From NCBI GenBank assembly GCA_016841675.1, contig JAENYQ010000008.1:1-64000 (forward strand): DNA of 64,000 nt, in the 5' to 3' direction. A model generated the notes under the pieces. The model had not been told where the DNA came from, did not search any database, and saw only the letters and a program-made list of their open reading frames with translations. The position numbers were made by a program, and so were the translations under genes. Positions 22,983 through 61,728 of this stretch are shown piece by piece (position 1 is the first letter of the stretch; the number at the start of each line of letters is the position of its first letter). The DNA comes from Desulfotomaculum sp. (GTDB lineage Bacteria; Bacillota; Desulfotomaculia; Desulfotomaculales; Desulfallaceae).

Positions 22983-23804
22983 CTAATCGCAGACCGGAGT
23001 CTCGTTCACCATCAACTGCAGCGTATCGGCCCGCAGTCCCAGTCGCATTGCTTCCAGGGCCAGTACTTCCTGGGTTGGAATGTTGCCCAGGTTAACATCG
23101 GAGCCGAACCGGGTAATTAAGTCTTGTTGCTGGGGTTTTAGTGGTGCTTCCCAGATAATCTTGCCCGGGTCGCCGATATACTCCAAAAGCACTTGAATGT
23201 CCGCAGTGTCCATTTTGCCTTTCGCGTTATATAGGCCTACGTTGAGTCCGCACTCCCTGCCTTCCAGGATCACCTTATGCGCACCCATCTCTAAATCCTC
23301 TCCAGCTTGCTCGGCAAGGGATATTACCGGAATACCGGGGCCGGCGTTTTTTTTACCTACTTCGGTGAGGACCATAAAACCCTTATCCGCAGCTATTGAT
23401 ATTGCTCGTGCTCTCACCTCTTTACAAATATTAATGGTGCCGTCGCTAACTTCGATGGCTGTGAACCCTAGCGATTTGCATTTGTCAAGGTACTCAATTA
23501 ATTTATCCTGCCATAACGCTATTTCAAAAAATGTTCCTCCGGGATAAATTTCGATGTTGTAGGAACACGCCAGGTGGATTTTTTCTTCCAGTAAACCGTC
23601 CGTGTAAAGCATCGATGTGCCAAAGGCAAGCTTAATGAAGTCAATATACGGGTGGTTTAGCTTGAGCAAATCCTGGGTCTCCCCGGTACCCATCCCCTTA
23701 TCCATAACCATGGTCAAACCCCGATGCCTGGGTTTGGCTGCGCGATCCCCCATTGGGAATGTTATAATTTCCCGCCACCCGTTGGTGTTAAAACATCCGG
23801 ACAA
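22983..23804 (-). CDS. comA: Phosphosulfolactate synthase (ComA/YitD family)
   Basis: A 273-residue TIM-barrel-type enzyme that adds sulfite to phosphoenolpyruvate, giving phosphosulfolactate. Family blocks are KPRHRGLTMVMDKGMG, DFIKLAFGTS, YPGGTFFE, AIEVSDGTI and LTEVGKK, and ANLGNI-like SDVNLGNIP near the end. In methanogens it opens coenzyme M synthesis; in bacilli the homologue serves sulfolactate formation during sporulation. The TTG at complement 23802-23804 follows AAGGGAG and gives the usual family length; the longer frame to 23864 is possible. No ComB or ComC lies beside it. Confidence 0.88.
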   Translation of the reverse strand: MSGCFNTNGWREIITFPMGDRAAKPRHRGLTMVMDKGMGTGETQDLLKLNHPYIDFIKLAFGTSMLYTDGLLEEKIHLACSYNIEIYPGGTFFEIALWQDKLIEYLDKCKSLGFTAIEVSDGTINICKEVRARAISIAADKGFMVLTEVGKKNAGPGIPVISLAEQAGEDLEMGAHKVILEGRECGLNVGLYNAKGKMDTADIQVLLEYIGDPGKIIWEAPLKPQQQDLITRFGSDVNLGNIPTQEVLALEAMRLGLRADTLQLMVNETPVCD

Positions 23805-24014
23805 AAAACCAGCTCCCTTCCCTATATGATGCATCCAGCCGTTATGACGGATGCCGGCTATCACCTCCTTTTGCTACTGTGTGGGAAAGGGCTAAATTTG
23901 CCACCTGGTTAAAATTATTCAACCCCGAATGAGATGGTTACCAGGATGAAGCTGCCAAAAAACGGAGTTATGTTGGAAAATATGGATAAAGTGTTTGGGT
24001 ACAAAGTATACGCG

Positions 24015-24096: not shown

Positions 24097-24948
24097 TCAC
24101 ACTCCTGCATTGCGCAGGGTTATGAACCCGGTGTGAATTTGGTTCGCCACCGGACCTGGGGCGCCACTGCCAATGATGTGGTCATCAACTTTGATCACTG
24201 GAACTACTTCTGTCACTGAATTTGTGAAAAAGACTTCATCGGCTGCTAAAAGGTCTGTGCTAGTAAATGTCTCTTCACGGGTATTAATACCCAGTGAATG
24301 GGCTGCTTGAAGCACGTATTTGCGGGTAATGCCGCTTAAAATCCGGTTGTTGGCCGGGTGGGTCAATAGTACCTTATTGCTATAGATAAATATGTTGCTG
24401 GCCGAACATTCCGTAACAGTACCGTCTTCCATGACGAATACGGCTTCAGCTGCTTCAGCCTGGGCAGCCCTGTTTTTGGCCAGTACACTGGATAGCAGTG
24501 ATGTGGATTTAATGTGACAAAGCTGCCAGCGGAATTCAGGCTGGGTGATGATTTTAACACCATCGGTATACATATCCCGTGCAATTTCCGGAACTTGCCG
24601 TACTGTAATAAGCAGGTTGGGGTTTATTTGCGGGTCATATAGGTGGTTTCTGTGCGCGGTACCCCGGCTGATTTGAATATAGATTATAGCTTCCTTAATG
24701 CCGCTTTGAACCAATAAATCTTCTGTAAACATGGCTAATTGTACCCTGCTCCAGGGAATTGTCATCTCTATTGCGGCGGCACTGTTCTCCAGGCGTTCCA
24801 GGTGATCGACAACGGCAAAGGGTACGCCGTTATAAACCCTGACTACCTCGTAAATACCATCCCCAAAATTGTAACCCCGGTCATTGACTGAAATAAACGA
24901 GTCTTCAAAAGAACCTATCCAACCGTTTAAATAAACCAATTCCTGCAA
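24097..24948 (-). CDS. dat: Class IV aminotransferase, D-alanine aminotransferase-like
   Basis: A 283-residue class IV PLP enzyme. Marks are ISVNDRGYNFGDGIYEVVRVY at the N-terminus (typical of D-amino acid aminotransferases), the PLP lysine in CHIKSTSLLSSVLAK, and the phosphate loop TECSASNIFI and LSGITRKYVL. TTG 24948 is chosen because GAGGGA lies just upstream; another TTG at 24966 has none. D-amino acid transaminase would supply D-glutamate or D-alanine for peptidoglycan. Branched-chain transaminase is a less likely alternative. Confidence 0.82.
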   Translation of the reverse strand: MQELVYLNGWIGSFEDSFISVNDRGYNFGDGIYEVVRVYNGVPFAVVDHLERLENSAAAIEMTIPWSRVQLAMFTEDLLVQSGIKEAIIYIQISRGTAHRNHLYDPQINPNLLITVRQVPEIARDMYTDGVKIITQPEFRWQLCHIKSTSLLSSVLAKNRAAQAEAAEAVFVMEDGTVTECSASNIFIYSNKVLLTHPANNRILSGITRKYVLQAAHSLGINTREETFTSTDLLAADEVFFTNSVTEVVPVIKVDDHIIGSGAPGPVANQIHTGFITLRNAGV

Positions 24949-25136
24949 AACAATCCCTCTTTTCAAAACGTTAATTATTTATGCATTAGCTGTTGCGTTT
25001 GTTTGTAATGGTACTATTAGTAAATTAAATACGAAATAGAAATTTCCTGCCCGCATTTCCAATTTCATTGAGTACATTTGGGTCGAGCGAGAACTACTGA
25101 TGAATAATAGTTAAATAATTAATTACTTGTTGTGGT

Positions 25137-25172
25137 GAAAAAACGGACAGGCCCGGAAAAAATCCGGGCCTG
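25137..25172 (-). terminator. Intrinsic terminator after the solo ferredoxin gene
   Basis: On the minus strand CAGGCCCGGA and TCCGGGCCTG pair over six T, then GTCCGTTTTTTC follows. It ends the transcript of the gene at 25223-25477. Confidence 0.88.
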
Positions 25173-25222
25173 CTTCAATAAGCATTGATGCGTTATTTTT
25201 TTAATTTGCCTTATGCGGTATA

Positions 25223-25477
25223 CTAAGCTGGAAGCACCGGCGTTGCAGTTTTGGTTCGTGCTGCGGCGTGGTTAACCGTGATAGCCAGGTCGGGGCAGTG
25301 GGATGCGCATTTTCCGCAGGCTGTGCAAGCTGCCGGGTTGGCCACTATCGCTTTACCGCGGTTATCCAACACCAATACCTTGCTGCTGCATAAAGCGATG
25401 CAAATACCGCAGCCTTTGCACCATTGTGATTTAACTATGATTTTGTTATTATCGATATAAGTGGCCGGTTTTGCCAT
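25223..25477 (-). CDS. 2x[4Fe-4S] ferredoxin, 2-oxoacid oxidoreductase delta-like
   Basis: An 84-residue ferredoxin with WCKGCGICIALC and CTACGKCASHCPD, each giving a cubane. It resembles the ferredoxin part of the KorA fusion at 55.2 kb almost segment by segment, so the two are paralogues of the delta subunit (KorD/VorD type). It stands alone, with its own terminator and a consensus sigma-54 promoter 64 bases upstream. The missing alpha, beta and gamma neighbours suggest it works with enzymes encoded elsewhere, perhaps the kor operon in this window. Confidence 0.9.
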   Translation of the reverse strand: MAKPATYIDNNKIIVKSQWCKGCGICIALCSSKVLVLDNRGKAIVANPAACTACGKCASHCPDLAITVNHAAARTKTATPVLPA

Positions 25478-25540
25478 TTGCCATCACTCCCGTCCCGGTT
25501 TAACAAGCCGGGGATAATATTTATTATAACCTAATGCTAC

Positions 25541-25556
25541 TGCAACCAGCGTGCCA
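25541..25556 (-). promoter_or_regulatory. Sigma-54 promoter for the solo ferredoxin
   Basis: On the minus strand the sequence is TGGCACGCTGGTTGCA, a full match to the -24/-12 consensus with GG and GC ten bases apart. It reads toward the ferredoxin gene that starts at 25477. Confidence 0.85.
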
Positions 25557-25743
25557 GGCGTTTATAAATCTAAATAACTTTATAGAAGGTGCCCGTGAAG
25601 GCCCTTGATAGCTGTTTTTTTACTGCGCCTTGCCCATGCTTAAATGCTTTAAGCAGCAGAACAGAGCCGACATATCTATCTCAAAATGACATAGATCATC
25701 CCGAAAGACTAGTTAGATAGCGCTTACTCTCACAATGACATAG

Positions 25744-25758
25744 GTATCAAATTGATAC
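25744..25758. promoter_or_regulatory. Palindrome GTATCAA-A-TTGATAC, possible activator site
   Basis: Perfect seven-base arms about 190 bases upstream of the sigma-54 promoter at 25541-25556. TTGATA half-sites also make up the palindrome upstream of the kor sigma-54 promoter, at a similar distance but in the opposite arrangement. Confidence 0.4.
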
Positions 25759-54768: not shown

Positions 54769-54870
54769 AATCTTTACCTCCTGTTTAAAATTCTTTTAAC
54801 TTAACAGTAAGCAGTTTTATTAGCAGTCTAACCGACGGTTAATCAGCAGTTAGTGGAGTTTAGGTGTAAT

Positions 54871-54892
54871 ACTTTGATATTGATATCAAAGT
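54871..54892. promoter_or_regulatory. Palindrome ACTTTGATAT-TG-ATATCAAAGT, candidate activator site
   Basis: Perfect 10-base arms with a two-base centre. It lies 177 bases upstream of the sigma-54 promoter at 55069, the normal distance for an enhancer-binding protein, and a sigma-54 activator is encoded after the operon. It is also about 100 bases from the cupin gene start. Confidence 0.55.
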
Positions 54893-55068
54893 GAGAGGGG
54901 CTTAATTTTACAAGGTTGACCCGGCCAATGTGTCAATATGAGATTAAAATGGAATTAAGGCTATCGGCAGATGCGGTTGGCATTCTTGGCAGAAAAAGCC
55001 CCGCCGAGGTTGTGAAAATGGCGTTTCGCGGGGTAAAATAGTGTTACGGAACTGTACCTCGAAGTTGC

Positions 55069-55084
55069 TGGCACGGCAGTTGCT
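55069..55084 (+). promoter_or_regulatory. Sigma-54 promoter of the kor operon
   Basis: TGGCACGGCAGTTGCT matches the -24/-12 consensus fully, with GG and GC ten bases apart. Transcription would start near 55095, about 65 bases before the ferredoxin start. Confidence 0.88.
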
Positions 55085-55201
55085 GTAACAGTTACTATAA
55101 ATAAAAAGCAAATGCTCAAAAGCTTGATTTTATAGCACAGAACCAGGAGTGATTAATAATGGCCAAGGCAGCTTCTCACTCAGTTCGATGATAACAAAAT
55201 A

Positions 55202-56581
55202 ATGGTTAAAAAACAATGGTGCAAAGGATGCGGAATCTGCACCACTCTTTGCAGTAATAATGTACTGATGCTGGACGGCCGCGGTAAAGTAGCAGTAACA
55301 AACCCTGCCGCCTGCACCGGGTGCGGCAAATGTGAGGATCATTGCCCTGATATGGCAATTAATATTAATCGTCACGCCATCAGGGAATTTAAAATATTAA
55401 CTCCAACCTCGAAAAAGAAAGGGAGGATACCGGGAATGAGTCGGGTTGTCGAACTTGCCCGGTTAATGCAGGGGAACGAAGCCGCTGCCGAAGGTGCCCT
55501 GGCAGCCGGTGTACGTTTCTTTGCGGGCTACCCCATTACACCATCTACTGAATTAGCCGAGATCATGGCTGAACGGCTGCCCCGGTTGGGCGGCAAATTT
55601 ATTCAAATGGAAGACGAAATGGCCAGTATGGCCGCCATCATCGGCGCCTCACTAGCCGGTGTGAAGTCACTGACTGCGACCAGTGGGCCGGGTTTCTCTT
55701 TAATGCAGGAAAATATCGGCTTTGCCGCCATGGCGGAAGTGCCCTGCGTAATCGTTAATGTCCAGCGCAGCGGTCCCAGCACCGGAATGCCCACGGCACC
55801 GGCTCAGGGAGATGTAATGCAAGCCCGCTGGGGTACGCACGGGGATCATCCCGTTATAGCTTTGTGTCCTTCCTCGGTCAGAGAAGCTTATGACCTGGCG
55901 GTACGTTCGGTCAACCTGGCGGAAAAGTATCGGATGCCGGTGATATTGCTGATGGATGAAGTAATCGGTCACCTCAGGGAAAGGGTTGTTTTGCCTTCAC
56001 CGGATGAAATTGAGATTGTTAACCGGCGGGAAACACAAGAGGCGCCCGCCGATTATTATGCCTACCGGGCTGACGAGACCGGGGTCCCGCCAATGGCTAA
56101 TTTTGGCACGGGATACCGTTATCATGTCACTGGGCTGGCGCACGATGAAACTGGTAACCCGACCAACGATCCGGATAAGGCGGAAAGCCTGTTGCTGCGC
56201 TTACACGACAAGCTTGGCCGAAACCTCGAAGATATTCTAATTGAAGATTCCAGGTCGCTGGATGACGCTGAAGTGGTGGTGCTGGCTTACGGAGCCACAG
56301 CCCGTCCGGCCAGACAGGCGGTAAAGGAAGCACGCCGGCAGAATATTAAAGCCGGCCTGTACAGACCGCTGACGTTGTGGCCTTTCCCGACTGCCAGTGT
56401 TGATCGTCTGGCCCGCCAGGCCCGGACTATTATTGTACCGGAGATGAACCTGGGCCAATACCGGATTGAAGTGGAGCGAACAGTCCGGGGCCGGGCCAGT
56501 GTAGTGGGTGTGAATAGAGTTAACGGTGAATTGATCGCTCCCGGAGAGATACTACAGGCCATCCTGGAGGTGGTTAAATAA
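55202..56581 (+). CDS. korA: 2-oxoacid:ferredoxin oxidoreductase, ferredoxin (delta) fused to alpha subunit
   Basis: The open frame encodes 459 residues. Residues 1-60 are a ferredoxin (WCKGCGICTTLC and CTGCGKCEDHCPD). A linker follows, then a KorA-type alpha subunit from about residue 79 with GYPITPSTELAE, TSGPGFSLMQEN, STGMPTAPAQGDVMQARWGT. An ATG at 55436 behind GGGAGGATACCGGGA could start a separate KorA. The 5' end is odd: a good ribosome site and ATG at 55159 open a frame (MAKAASHSV) that hits TGA at 55189. One extra base near 55183 would account for it, compared with the paralogue at 25477. So the true start is probably 55159 with a frameshift or sequencing error. Best reading: 2-oxoglutarate-type enzyme, substrate inferred. 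Confidence 0.85.
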   Translation: MVKKQWCKGCGICTTLCSNNVLMLDGRGKVAVTNPAACTGCGKCEDHCPDMAININRHAIREFKILTPTSKKKGRIPGMSRVVELARLMQGNEAAAEGALAAGVRFFAGYPITPSTELAEIMAERLPRLGGKFIQMEDEMASMAAIIGASLAGVKSLTATSGPGFSLMQENIGFAAMAEVPCVIVNVQRSGPSTGMPTAPAQGDVMQARWGTHGDHPVIALCPSSVREAYDLAVRSVNLAEKYRMPVILLMDEVIGHLRERVVLPSPDEIEIVNRRETQEAPADYYAYRADETGVPPMANFGTGYRYHVTGLAHDETGNPTNDPDKAESLLLRLHDKLGRNLEDILIEDSRSLDDAEVVVLAYGATARPARQAVKEARRQNIKAGLYRPLTLWPFPTASVDRLARQARTIIVPEMNLGQYRIEVERTVRGRASVVGVNRVNGELIAPGEILQAILEVVK

Positions 56582-57429
56582 TGATGGAGGAATTGGAACG
56601 GTACCTGCGAATGGACCGGTTTCCCCATATGTGGTGTCCGGGTTGCGGTAACGGCATTGTGCTCGGATGTATGTTGAGGGCTATTAAAAAACTGGACCTG
56701 GAACAGGACCGGACCGTAATAGTAGGCGGCATCGGGTGTTCGTCCAGGGCAGTGGGTTATTTGGACTTTAATACCCTACATACCACCCACGGACGGGCGC
56801 TGGCTTACGCCACTGGAATTAAACTGGCCCGCCCGGAATTAAATGTAATCGTGGTTTCTGGTGATGGTGATTTAACGGCCATTGGCGGTAACCATTTTAT
56901 CCACGCTGCCAGGAGAAACATCGATTTGACCCTGGTGCTTTTTAACAATAGCATCTACGGTATGACCGGGGGGCAGTATTCGCCCCTTACCCCGGCGGGT
57001 AAAAAAGCTACTACCGCCCCTTACGGCACCATCGAGACAGGGTTTGACGCATCTGAGCTGGCCGGCGCCGCCGGTGCCACTTTTGTTGGTCGGGGTACCA
57101 CCTATCATACCGAGTTGCTTACCGGCCTAATAGTAAAGGGTATACAAAATAAAGGATTCAGCCTGGTAGAAGCCATAACTGCCTGTCCCACCGCTTTTGG
57201 CCGGCGGAACAAGATGAAGAGCGGAACGGAAATGCTGCTGTGGCAAAAAGAAAATGCGGTGCATATTAACCGGGCCGGACGGTTGTCTCCGGAAGAGTTG
57301 GATGGCAAAATAGTTATCGGAGAACTGCATAGGCATGAGGCGCCTGAATACACGGAGCTGTACGATAAATTAATTTTAAATGTACGGCAGGAGACGGATG
57401 GTGCTTCGATTAAGCCAATGAAGGTCTAA
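56581..57429 (+). CDS. korB: 2-oxoacid:ferredoxin oxidoreductase beta subunit
   Basis: A 282-residue thiamine-diphosphate-binding subunit. WCPGCGNGIV gives the cluster-adjacent cysteines, GIGCSSR is the conserved turn, and GDGDLTAIGGNHFIHAARRN with NNSIYGMTGGQ form the TPP-magnesium site. It starts at an ATG that shares a base with the korA stop; a second ATG follows at once. With alpha and gamma it oxidises a 2-oxoacid to acyl-CoA with ferredoxin reduction, or runs in reverse in CO2-fixing anaerobes. Confidence 0.93.
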   Translation: MMEELERYLRMDRFPHMWCPGCGNGIVLGCMLRAIKKLDLEQDRTVIVGGIGCSSRAVGYLDFNTLHTTHGRALAYATGIKLARPELNVIVVSGDGDLTAIGGNHFIHAARRNIDLTLVLFNNSIYGMTGGQYSPLTPAGKKATTAPYGTIETGFDASELAGAAGATFVGRGTTYHTELLTGLIVKGIQNKGFSLVEAITACPTAFGRRNKMKSGTEMLLWQKENAVHINRAGRLSPEELDGKIVIGELHRHEAPEYTELYDKLILNVRQETDGASIKPMKV

Positions 57430-57444
57430 GTGACGGGGGGAGTT

Positions 57445-58005
57445 TTGTCCTTGGGTGATAGAACAGAGTTACGTCTAAGCGGCACCGGCGGGCAGGGGCT
57501 TATCCTGGCCGGGATTATCATGGCTGACGCCGCCATAAGGGATGGTAAAAATTCCATCCAGTCCCAGTCTTATGGACCGGAAGCCCGGGGTGGTGCCAGC
57601 AGGGCGGAAGTGATTATCGGTGATGAGGAGATTGACTATCCCAAGGTAACTAATCCGAATGTGCTGCTGGTGATGAGCCAGGAGGCCTGCGATAAGTTTG
57701 CCAGTGACCTGGCCAGTGGCGGGGTAATAATTGCAGATTCTACTTACGTGCAGGAATTGCCCGCAGTTGACGGTCAGATTTGTAAGCTGCCAATCAGCCA
57801 GACCGCTCGGGAAGAGGTGGGTCGGGAGATGGTAGCCAATGTGGTGGCGCTGGGCGCAGTGGCCAGAATCACTGGCGTTGTATCCAGGGCGGCGTTAACA
57901 GAAGCTCTGATGGCCAGAATACCCAGGGGTACAGAAGAAATTAACCGCAAGGCCCTGGAACTGGGATGGCAATTGGCCGAGCAGGGCTCCACCGGTGTCT
58001 TGTGA
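57445..58005 (+). CDS. korC: 2-oxoacid:ferredoxin oxidoreductase gamma subunit
   Basis: A 186-residue gamma subunit. LSGTGGQGLILAGIIMADAA and SYGPEARGGASRAEVII are the family signatures for the CoA-contacting domain. TTG 57445 is chosen because GGGGGGAG lies just before it; GTG 57430 precedes the ribosome site. It completes the delta/alpha-beta-gamma set in family order. The sigma-54 activator gene follows after 155 bases. Confidence 0.92.
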   Translation: MSLGDRTELRLSGTGGQGLILAGIIMADAAIRDGKNSIQSQSYGPEARGGASRAEVIIGDEEIDYPKVTNPNVLLVMSQEACDKFASDLASGGVIIADSTYVQELPAVDGQICKLPISQTAREEVGREMVANVVALGAVARITGVVSRAALTEALMARIPRGTEEINRKALELGWQLAEQGSTGVL

Positions 58006-58160
58006 AAACTAATTGTGAAAACTAATGTTCATAATTAATACAGGCGGCTGCGCCTTGAATAAACGTATTGTTGAGCGCGGCCGGTTTATGATAAGATAAC
58101 GGGGTTGCAAATTGAGACCTCAGTTTAATTCGTTAAAATATTTTTCGGGAGATGCAGTTG

Positions 58161-59963
58161 ATGGTACTGAGCCTGATGGAAGCTAAGGAAACTGAACAAC
58201 GTGTCTCTGATGCTATAGCCGCCGTACTGAAGGTGGAGGTTGAAATAATTGACTCCAACCTGGTTCGGGTGGCGGGAACGGGCAAGGTACGTGCCGGTGT
58301 GGGCAACCGTCTGCTACGCGGATTGGTTAACAAACATGTGTTGCAAACCGGGAAATCGGTGTTTGTTAACGAACCAGGTTACCATCCTATTTGTCTTTCC
58401 TGTCCCTTAACAGGAACTTGTTTCTACAAGGCTTATATAGTATATCCCATTAGCGTTGAAGAAAAAGTGATCGGCACGATTAGCTTGGTGGCTTTTGACG
58501 ATGAACAAAAACGTACTCTGATGGAGAATAACGAAACACTGCTTGATTTTATCGGGCGCATGGCAGATTTGATCGCCGGTAAGGTCGTGGAAAGAGAAAT
58601 GGTTCGCGAGAAGATAGTCATTGCCAACAGGTTGGAAGCTGTGGTTGACTCCGTCTATGAGGGTGTAATGGCTATGGATGAACGGGGATTTGTTACTAAT
58701 TTTAACCTGTCCGCAGAACGCATGTTTGGCATAAAGAAGGACCAAGTGGTAGGGAAAAATGTCCAAAAAGTTTTTGGTGACAGCATGTTGATGGACGCCC
58801 TGAAAACGGGTAAGGGTTTTAAAGCCCGGGAATACTTGGTTAACTTTCAAGGCAAAAAACTGCACTTTTGGACTACTGCCAAGCCGATTAAATCAGAAAA
58901 AAAAGATTCCGTGGGCATAGTCGCCACATTCAGGGATTTCCGGGAAGCACAAAAACTGGCTTACCAAATAGTTACCACTCAGGAAAAAATGGACTTTAAC
59001 GATATTATTGGTCACAGTAAAGCTATTCGCGAAGTTATTGCCAAGGCCGCCAAAATTGCCCTAAGTAATTCCACTGTGTTGATTGTGGGTGATAGCGGCA
59101 CCGGTAAAGAAATATTTGCCCGGGCCATTCACACCGCCGGAAGTTCCGGACGTAAACCGTTTGTGACTATAAACTGCGGAGCTATACCCGAACACTTACT
59201 GGAAAGCGAACTTTTCGGCTACGAGGAAGGTGCATTTACCGGTGCCAGGCGGGGCGGTAAGCCAGGCAAATTTGAACTGGCCAACGGCGGTACCATTTTC
59301 CTTGACGAGATTGGCAACATGTCTCTTTACCTGCAGGCCAAGCTGTTGCGAGTTCTGCAGGAAAGGCAGATTGAACGGGTTGGTAGTACCCAGACGGTTC
59401 CAGTGGATATAAGGATTATTGCCGCCACCAACAGTGACTTACAGGACATGGTGCGCCGTGGGCGTTTCCGGGAGGACCTTTACTACCGGCTTAGCGTCAT
59501 CCCCCTGTTTTTACCTTCCTTACGTGAACGTCGGGAGGACATTCCATTGTTGCTGGATCACTTTACAAGACGCTTTGCAGGGTTAATGAATAAAAAAATT
59601 GAGCGTTTCAGCGAAGATGCTATAAAGCTTTGCCTGGATTACCCGTGGCCCGGAAACATCCGGGAACTGATTAATGCCGTAGAATATGCCATCAACCTGG
59701 AAGAAAGTCAAGTTATTATGCCCGAAAGTCTGCCACCCCGACTCAGGGATGGTAAGGGAAAACATGACCTGCCGTTGGCGACACACGACGCAATTAGACC
59801 ACTGGAGCAATTGGAGAAAGGAGCCATCAGTCAGGCTTTGGAAGTGTATGGTTGGACCGAGGAGGGCAAAAAGAAGGCTGCAGCAATGCTGGGTATAAGC
59901 AGGGCTACTATTTACCGTAAAATCAGTAAATACGACTTGGTACACGTAAACGATGACGAATAA
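58161..59963 (+). CDS. Sigma-54-dependent transcriptional activator with cysteine-bearing sensor and PAS domain
   Basis: A 600-residue enhancer-binding protein. Residues 1-145 form a GAF-like sensor with Cys78, Cys81 and Cys87 in CLSCPLTGTC, which could hold an iron-sulfur centre or sense redox. A PAS domain follows (about 158-265). The AAA+ core has Walker A GDSGTGKE, the sigma-54 contact GAFTGA, and LRVLQERQIERVGS. A Fis-type helix-turn-helix ends it (AAAMLGISRATIYRKISKY). ATG 58161 gives normal spacing to CGGGAG; ATG 58152 touches that site and TTG 58158 is possible. Position directly after the sigma-54-driven kor operon makes it the likely activator. Confidence 0.92.
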   Translation: MVLSLMEAKETEQRVSDAIAAVLKVEVEIIDSNLVRVAGTGKVRAGVGNRLLRGLVNKHVLQTGKSVFVNEPGYHPICLSCPLTGTCFYKAYIVYPISVEEKVIGTISLVAFDDEQKRTLMENNETLLDFIGRMADLIAGKVVEREMVREKIVIANRLEAVVDSVYEGVMAMDERGFVTNFNLSAERMFGIKKDQVVGKNVQKVFGDSMLMDALKTGKGFKAREYLVNFQGKKLHFWTTAKPIKSEKKDSVGIVATFRDFREAQKLAYQIVTTQEKMDFNDIIGHSKAIREVIAKAAKIALSNSTVLIVGDSGTGKEIFARAIHTAGSSGRKPFVTINCGAIPEHLLESELFGYEEGAFTGARRGGKPGKFELANGGTIFLDEIGNMSLYLQAKLLRVLQERQIERVGSTQTVPVDIRIIAATNSDLQDMVRRGRFREDLYYRLSVIPLFLPSLRERREDIPLLLDHFTRRFAGLMNKKIERFSEDAIKLCLDYPWPGNIRELINAVEYAINLEESQVIMPESLPPRLRDGKGKHDLPLATHDAIRPLEQLEKGAISQALEVYGWTEEGKKKAAAMLGISRATIYRKISKYDLVHVNDDE

Positions 59964-60408: not shown

Positions 60409-61728
60409 ATGTGTTTGGATATTAATGAAAAATTTAGGGAAAAGGGGTGGCGCCTTTTGGAGCTTTTAATGAGTTCGCACAGTGTTGTAAAACATTCGGA
60501 TGAAGAAAAACGCCTTGTCGCGTTGGAACGGGCCGAGGAACTTAAACAACATATCAAAGGTTACAGGGAAGCATCAAAAAACATACCCACTGGTTTTAAT
60601 CTGAGCCATGAATTTAAGGTTAGAAGGGATCAAATAAGAGAGCAATTGGGTGCCACGGAAGAGGAATGGAACGATTGGCACTGGCAGATGCAAAACCGGG
60701 TCAACGACTTGGATACATTGCGCCAGTTAATGCCTATAACGGATGAAGAGGCCAGACATATAGAAATGGTGAGCATGAAGTTTAGGTGGGCCGTTTCACC
60801 GTATTACCTAAGTATTATGTCCACTGACAACCCCAATTGTCCGGTCAGGATGCAGGGCATTCCAATTGGCAGGGAATTACAGGATATGTGGGGTAAGGAA
60901 GACCCGATGGCCGAGGAGTTTACTTCTCCGGCGCCACGCATCACCCGCCGTTACGCTGATCGCTTGATTATTAATGTCACTAACCAGTGTGCCATGTTCT
61001 GCCGTCACTGTCAGCGCAGGCGCAATATTGGCGAGGTTGACGCCCCTGCTTCGTTAGATGAAATTAAAGCTGCCATTGAGTATATCAAAAAGAACTCGGA
61101 AATAAGGGATGTTTTAATTACCGGCGGCGACCCGCTGACGCTTACCGATGCTAAACTAGACTGGATTTTAACCGAGTTGGACAACATTGAGCATGTGGAA
61201 ATAAAACGCATTGGGAGCAGGACACCGGTAACTATGCCACAGCGGATCACGCAGGAACTTTGCGACATGTTGGAAAAGCATCACCCTCTTTTCATAAATA
61301 CTCATTTTAATCACCCCAAGGAAGTAACCGATGAAGCGCTGCGTGCTACCAGGATGCTGGCCAAGGCCGGAATCCCATTGGGCAATCAGGCTGTACTGCT
61401 CAAGGGAATTAACAACGACCCGCATGTTATGAAAAAACTTAATCATGAACTGCTTAAAATACATGTGCGACCCTACTATATTTTCCATGCCAAGCCCGTT
61501 AAGGGTACCGCCCATTTTGTGCCCACCATCCAGGAAGGGTTGGAAATCATGGAGAATTTGCGCGGTTTTACGTCTGGTTTGGCTATTCCTTGGTATATTA
61601 TCAACGCCCCGGGTGGGGCAGGTAAAACACCAATTCTACCTCAATATCTGTTATCAATGGGCAAAAATCACGTCATGATTAGGACTTGGGAAGGCAAGGT
61701 TTTTCGTTGCGCTAACAATAGCCTGTAA
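60409..61728 (+). CDS. eam: Glutamate 2,3-aminomutase (radical SAM, KamA family)
   Basis: A 439-residue radical SAM, PLP-dependent aminomutase. The cluster motif is CAMFCRHC (Cys194, 198, 201) and the PLP lysine is Lys406 in PGGAGK. Lysine 2,3-aminomutase binds its substrate amine with two aspartates 37 residues apart; this protein has Lys362 (IFHAKPVKG) and Asn399 (YIINAPGG) at those positions. The same Lys/Asn pair marks glutamate 2,3-aminomutase of Clostridioides difficile, so the product should be beta-glutamate, a compatible solute. The ATG at 60409 has no ribosome site; TTG 60457, behind AAAAGGGG, may be the real start. Monocistronic, with a terminator. Confidence 0.88.
   Translation: MCLDINEKFREKGWRLLELLMSSHSVVKHSDEEKRLVALERAEELKQHIKGYREASKNIPTGFNLSHEFKVRRDQIREQLGATEEEWNDWHWQMQNRVNDLDTLRQLMPITDEEARHIEMVSMKFRWAVSPYYLSIMSTDNPNCPVRMQGIPIGRELQDMWGKEDPMAEEFTSPAPRITRRYADRLIINVTNQCAMFCRHCQRRRNIGEVDAPASLDEIKAAIEYIKKNSEIRDVLITGGDPLTLTDAKLDWILTELDNIEHVEIKRIGSRTPVTMPQRITQELCDMLEKHHPLFINTHFNHPKEVTDEALRATRMLAKAGIPLGNQAVLLKGINNDPHVMKKLNHELLKIHVRPYYIFHAKPVKGTAHFVPTIQEGLEIMENLRGFTSGLAIPWYIINAPGGAGKTPILPQYLLSMGKNHVMIRTWEGKVFRCANNSL

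Follow-up and report, generated by a model that had tools for sequence, protein, structure and literature searches.

Background

In the NorR-norVW enhancer of E. coli, three operators lie upstream of a -24/-12 promoter; they are essential and are thought to scaffold assembly of the activator ring/hexamer (PMC2941729). The NorR operator consensus is GT-N7-AC (PMC1274295). For Clostridiales, Nie et al. 2019 describe 39 groups of enhancer-binding proteins (EBPs) with multiple sites 100-250 bp before the promoter, mostly located beside their targets; Table 1 of that study includes neither kor nor ferredoxin targets among the 39 groups (PMC6615313). No other paper describing a sigma-54 regulon of kor and ferredoxin genes was found among the open papers searched.

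The window analysed here (64,000 nucleotides, positions 1 to 64,000 of contig JAENYQ010000008.1 of a Desulfotomaculum sp., a bacterium of sulfate-reducer type) carries a solo ferredoxin gene, a kor operon and a sigma-54 activator gene at 58152. It resembles the NorR system in that the activator has an N-terminal GAF domain and that three operators are located upstream of a -24/-12 promoter. Moreover, the GT-N7-AC positions coincide with the spacing of the operator unit observed here, TNTCA-N3-TGANA. However, the outer operator bases are variable in the present case (A/G/C and G/T), the putative targets are kor and a ferredoxin, and the 58152 protein also includes a PAS domain and a Cys triad. 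This protein scores 293.5 bits with the curated NorR model NF003451, against a cut-off of 476.

The regulons of the Clostridiales EBPs, as far as they are set out in the tables and text drawn on here, provide a second parallel (PMC6615313): their members, DioR especially, are one-component PAS-type activators with multiple upstream sites. At the dpaL/DioR loci of genomes G052 and G047 there are likewise three copies of the half-site seen at kor and the solo ferredoxin gene, but the close pair is spaced by 19 bp instead of 17 bp. Three copies of TNTCA-N3-TGANA including a 19-bp pair were observed at L185 (1482-1650), L187 (1515-1655) and L194 (2824-2899), and the 19-bp-pair arrays adjoin related sigma-54 activators or known targets, namely dpaL (G052, G047) and an altronate-dehydratase-like gene (G009). 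Since related activators in other genera are found beside arrays of the same half-site, the operator appears to belong to an activator subgroup, whose members may be separated by spacing or by half-site detail.

Results and discussion

The solo ferredoxin gene

The features of this gene are:

25147..25173, minus strand: strong intrinsic terminator after the solo ferredoxin gene (11-bp stem, T tail)
25223..25477, minus strand: solo ferredoxin of the two-[4Fe-4S] type, a paralogue of KorD, the ferredoxin encoded in kor (Pfam Fer4_10/Fer4_7/Fer4 above cut-off)
25541..25556, minus strand: predicted -24/-12 sigma-54 promoter of the solo ferredoxin gene, TGGCACGCTGGTTGCA (exact TGGCACN5TTGCW match)

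The gene encodes a protein of 84 residues with two 4Fe-4S motifs, and none of its neighbours is an oxidoreductase gene. Because the terminator follows it, a monocistronic transcript is predicted. A scan of genome contigs returned three close relatives. Identity with the kor ferredoxin reaches 65% over 68 residues, in agreement with the close similarity noted in the first-pass annotation, and orthologs are found in BRH_c8a (86% identical) and MAG.313 (60%). The two 4Fe-4S motifs and a phmmer E-value of 5.6e-9 relate the protein to the KorD/OorD delta subunit of 2-oxoglutarate:ferredoxin oxidoreductase (PDB 8ys5_D). It differs by its isolated position, by its own promoter and terminator, and by scores below the curated delta-subunit cut-offs (OorD, 41.7 vs 93 bits; PorD_KorD, 34.6 vs 60 bits); the kor-linked ferredoxin is likewise below both (44.5 and 26.3 bits). 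The solo ferredoxin would most likely supply the KOR enzyme with an additional electron carrier or with a delta subunit that can be exchanged for its own.

The leader (25478-25515, minus strand) is nearly invariant in comparison with BRH_c8a, and the sequence further up has diverged. It includes a short hairpin (25493-25513) just 5' of the Shine-Dalgarno sequence GGGAGTGAT, for which a role in translational control is possible. Downstream, on the same strand, are a phosphosulfolactate synthase gene (ComA, TIGR03849 above cut-off; 22983-23864) and a D-amino-acid-transaminase-like gene (24097-24966), whose position is kept in BRH_c8a and MAG.313.

The kor operons

The promoter and genes of the kor operon are:

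55069..55084, plus strand: predicted -24/-12 sigma-54 promoter of the kor operon, TGGCACGGCAGTTGCT (exact TGGCACN5TTGCW match)
55202..56581, plus strand: KorD-type ferredoxin in one frame with KorA, the alpha subunit, in this assembly (KorA part, NCBIfam PRK08659, 581.5 vs 411 bits)
56581..57429, plus strand: KorB, TPP-binding beta subunit (Pfam TPP_enzyme_C)
57430..58005, plus strand: KorC, gamma subunit (Pfam POR)

The model passed by the KorA part, PRK08659, is that of the alpha subunit of 2-oxoacid:acceptor oxidoreductases, and the enzyme is clearly predicted to belong to this family. 2-oxoglutarate is its likely substrate because the nearest models point there, all of them below their own cut-offs: 2-oxoglutarate-specific models are among the best (alpha, 418 vs 579 bits; beta, 306 vs 364 bits), and the best NCBIfam model of KorB is the 2-oxoglutarate:ferredoxin oxidoreductase beta subunit. 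Near codon 7 of the kor ferredoxin (55159-55440), a tandem duplication of the 4 bp CTCA causes a frameshift; in this assembly the spacer before korA is lost and ferredoxin and KorA form one frame of 459 residues. The two genes are separate and intact in BRH_c8a. Either a genuine lesion or an error in the assembly could explain the single frame.

A third kor operon of this genome (korDABC, in the stretch 1993-12000 of contig C156) has neither a sigma-54 promoter nor operators. Its KorABC proteins are 82-87% identical to those of the first kor operon; homologous coding sequence alone thus does not bring the promoter and operators with it. Behind this operon come a transporter-like gene, a putative regulator of 829 residues and, further on, a glycyl-radical-enzyme-like gene (regulator and enzyme families assigned by eye), and two near-identical TGCAATAATTATCACAAA repeats are located upstream of its ferredoxin gene. 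In Desulfotruncus arcticus, a second kor copy has promoter and sites with no activator adjacent. This suggests that it is controlled in trans, the mode also proposed here for the solo ferredoxin gene.

Two predicted sigma-54 promoters

Both -24/-12 sites carry GG at -24 and GC at -12 within the spaced consensus TGGCAC-N5-TTGCW, as expected of sigma-54 promoters, and both genes are thus predicted to be sigma-54 dependent. The genome includes a single sigma-54 gene (Sigma54_DBD, E-value 1.5e-60). The promoter announced in the first-pass annotation before the solo ferredoxin gene was recovered, at 63 rather than 64 bases from the ATG at 25477, and a promoter of the same type is present at the kor operon near 55 kb, as had also been claimed. 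The solo ferredoxin promoter is conserved as TGGCACGCTGATTGCA in BRH_c8a and TGGCACAATTATTGCT in MAG.313.

Exact TGGCACN5TTGCW matches are rare: six in the 3.84-Mb genome, against none for the reversed-pattern control. Two of the six precede the solo and kor ferredoxin genes. The others are found on C4 (preceding an acyl-CoA dehydrogenase gene), on C112 (inside an ior coding region), on C17 and on C88, and none of these four was returned by the composite scan for promoter and operator described below. Allowing one mismatch yielded 145 matches vs 71 in the control, too noisy for use.

Three operators of fixed geometry

The operators upstream of the two promoters are:

25745..25757, minus strand: operator O1 of the solo ferredoxin gene, TATCAATTTGATA, within the palindrome GTATCA-AAT-TGATAC (25744-25758)
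25728..25740, minus strand: operator O2 of the solo ferredoxin gene, TGTCATTGTGAGA, its centre 17 bp from that of O1
25679..25691, minus strand: operator O3 of the solo ferredoxin gene, TGTCATTTTGAGA, spaced 49 bp from O2 and with its centre 129 bp away from the -24 T
54867..54879, plus strand: operator O1 of kor, TAATACTTTGATA, in decayed form (2 mismatches; the right half is intact)
54884..54896, plus strand: operator O2 of kor, TATCAAAGTGAGA (TNTCA-N3-TGANA)
54931..54943, plus strand: operator O3 of kor, TGTCAATATGAGA, with its centre 132 bp away from the -24 T

A TTGATA-based palindrome had been reported about 190 bases upstream of the solo ferredoxin promoter. The palindrome is present (25744-25758, about 187 bases upstream), but TTGATA was rejected as the half-site, as it is not in the conserved register; the conserved unit is TNTCA-N3-TGANA, in three copies. 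The same half-site had been claimed at a similar distance at kor. The corresponding operators do exist there, but the 20-bp palindrome that had been pointed out, CTTTGATATTGATATCAAAG, overlaps the decayed O1 and the good O2 with its symmetry out of the conserved register, and was rejected as an operator. The layout of the solo ferredoxin gene is O1, 17 bp, O2, about 48 bp, O3, about 129 bp, promoter; that of kor is the same with O1 decayed.

The sample consisted of the regions upstream of close ferredoxin homologs found in 60 related genomes: korD of korDABC operons, the solo ferredoxin gene (this genome, BRH_c8a and MAG.313), and an extra kor copy in this genome and in Desulfotruncus arcticus. 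Across these regions O1 and O2 are separated by 17 bp and O2 and O3 by 47-49 bp, and O3 is located 117-139 bp from the -24 element (82-83 bp in two genomes). The -24/-12 site itself lies 58-146 bases before the ATG in all regions except C156:1993 of this genome. Fourteen kor and solo ferredoxin upstream regions include 36 exact TNTCA-N3-TGANA sites, whereas 500 dinucleotide shuffles yielded on average 0.094 sites and at most 2. The contrast is somewhat overstated because the motif was read off the same 14 regions. The geometry and the genome scans are independent of this derivation.

The operators are conserved in relatives, a point on which the regulon suggested by the first-pass annotation depended. 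A comparison of this genome with BRH_c8a shows every motif and promoter position to be identical, 32 of 32 for the solo ferredoxin gene and 24 of 24 for kor, while identity in the rest of the upstream sequence is 64% and 75%, respectively.

The arrangement is also nearly restricted to these genes. A composite scan of the 60 genomes, combining the promoter with one operator at the right distance, returned 18 matches and none with the reversed control. Of these, 14 are at kor or solo ferredoxin promoters and 2 at dpaL promoters of the DioR kind; what the remaining 2, G007:C32 and G026, mean is doubtful. Within this genome, the scan for -24/-12 sites with upstream operators, put forward in the first-pass annotation, identified the solo ferredoxin and kor promoters only. 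Exact O1-O2 pairs, sought in 120 genomes, are all at kor or solo ferredoxin genes among the matches listed; with 3 mismatches the pair scan reaches background (28 per strand vs 15 in the control). The regulon is thus delimited by pattern scans, which single-site or differently spaced targets would escape. Contig C128 of this genome starts with a 17-bp tandem repeat, TGTCATTCTGAACCGCG (C128:2-99), whose resemblance to the operators is due to chance.

A small sigma-54 regulon of a 2-oxoacid oxidoreductase and its electron carriers, as first suggested, is supported by the common promoter and three-operator layout, the rigid spacing and the invariant motif bases, all of them features of the sequence.

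The candidate activator

Two genes downstream of korC are of interest:

58152..59963, plus strand: sigma-54 activator with GAF (Cys triad), PAS, AAA+ (GAFTGA) and Fis-type HTH domains (Pfam PF00158 and PF02954 above cut-off)
60409..61728, plus strand: glutamate 2,3-aminomutase, conserved neighbour of the activator (TIGR04368 above cut-off; synteny), possibly a regulon member

The GAF domain exceeds the cut-off in a scan limited to the N-terminal part. GAFTGA is present in all ten aligned orthologs, and the domains are those of an enhancer-binding protein. All ten also carry the triad C-x2-C-x5-C in the GAF part, and it is thinkable that this domain senses metal or redox state; a PDB profile search with the sensor domain returned nothing significant.

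The first-pass annotation had suggested the activator gene at 58161 (58152/58161 here), which is syntenic with kor in most relatives, in the order korDABC-activator-glutamate 2,3-aminomutase. A link between 2-oxoglutarate supply and beta-glutamate via the aminomutase is conceivable. A close ortholog of the 58152 protein is found in 18 of the 60 genomes. The composite site at kor or the ferredoxin gene is present in 10 genomes, every one of them with an ortholog, and in 0 of the 42 genomes that have none (Fisher p 6e-7, kinship ignored). Two more distant genomes, G022 and G046, have the ortholog and a kor operon with no recognisable sites or promoter within the stretch examined. The 58152 protein is the likely regulator of the candidate sites, to judge from its position and distribution.

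Alternative explanations

This genome encodes about 15 sigma-54 activators, and in other genomes dpaL and the altronate-dehydratase-like gene are preceded by this half-site, with a 19-bp pair, beside related activators of the subgroup; the assignment to 58152 therefore rests on synteny and co-occurrence. The operators might thus be real and sigma-54-linked while another activator of this genome governs the solo ferredoxin gene, with or without kor. This is improbable: ten orthologs share the recognition-helix region of the 58152 protein and none of the genome's other activators matches it there, this genome contains no 19-bp pair at up to one mismatch, and site and ortholog occur together.

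That the operators serve the divergent neighbours instead of the ferredoxins is suggested by the short distance, 33 bases, between O1 of the solo gene and the start codon of a YgjP-like gene (25791), and by a cupin gene (54768) divergent to kor here and in BRH_c8a. However, MAG.313 keeps the operators with its ferredoxin gene and has no YgjP gene, most kor loci have no adjacent cupin, and the operator distance is constant to the -24/-12 site and not to the divergent gene, which makes such a role very unlikely. The upstream likeness could also be a mere remnant, left when korD was recently duplicated together with its promoter, and without present function at the solo gene: the solo ferredoxin is a paralogue of KorD, and its gene is found in this genus only. 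Retention is not automatic, however, as the third kor copy (C156) lacks promoter and operators, and all 32 motif positions of the solo gene are kept between two species whose other upstream bases are 64% identical; a mere relic is hardly credible. The decay of O1 at kor counts against an explanation that involves both operons.

Proposed regulation and its meaning

A rare promoter and a three-part site common to both loci and conserved in relatives suggest that the solo ferredoxin gene and kor are probably co-activated by the regulator encoded with the kor operon. Taken as a whole, the explanation that the solo ferredoxin gene and korDABC are two targets of one sigma-54 activator, 58152, is probably correct. 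Activator dimers would bind all three operators (O1 and O2 as a close pair, O3 singly), which lie some 130-195 bp upstream, and by analogy with NorR might there assemble the active AAA+ ring. This ring would open the sigma-54 RNA polymerase held at the -24/-12 promoter. The activator signal would thus raise both the 2-oxoacid (probably 2-oxoglutarate):ferredoxin oxidoreductase and the extra delta-type ferredoxin, and also the level of the activator itself if it is co-transcribed with kor, a presumed autoregulation. BRH_c8a is described as Gram-positive and sulfate-reducing, with acetate among the organic acids it oxidizes (PMC5067608), a physiology that would fit such a regulon.

A further reading, put forward tentatively and rather unlikely to hold in both its parts, is that the activator, with its Cys-triad GAF domain, is dedicated to sensing redox state or 2-oxoacid and tunes the carrier pool, the extra delta ferredoxin exchanging with the built-in one and re-routing KOR electrons, and that the 2+1 operator geometry (17/48/129 bp) is a spacing code that separates the promoters of paralogous activators sharing the half-site.

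The mechanism is a known one; target and operator are new. The regulon, apparently undescribed, would be an addition to those of Desulfotomaculum-type bacteria and would tie one activator to a central low-potential electron reaction, that of 2-oxoacid:ferredoxin oxidoreductase. The exact operator with its fixed geometry makes the proposal directly testable. The same half-site, found with other spacings beside related activators, may make it practicable to study how cross-talk between paralogous activators is prevented.
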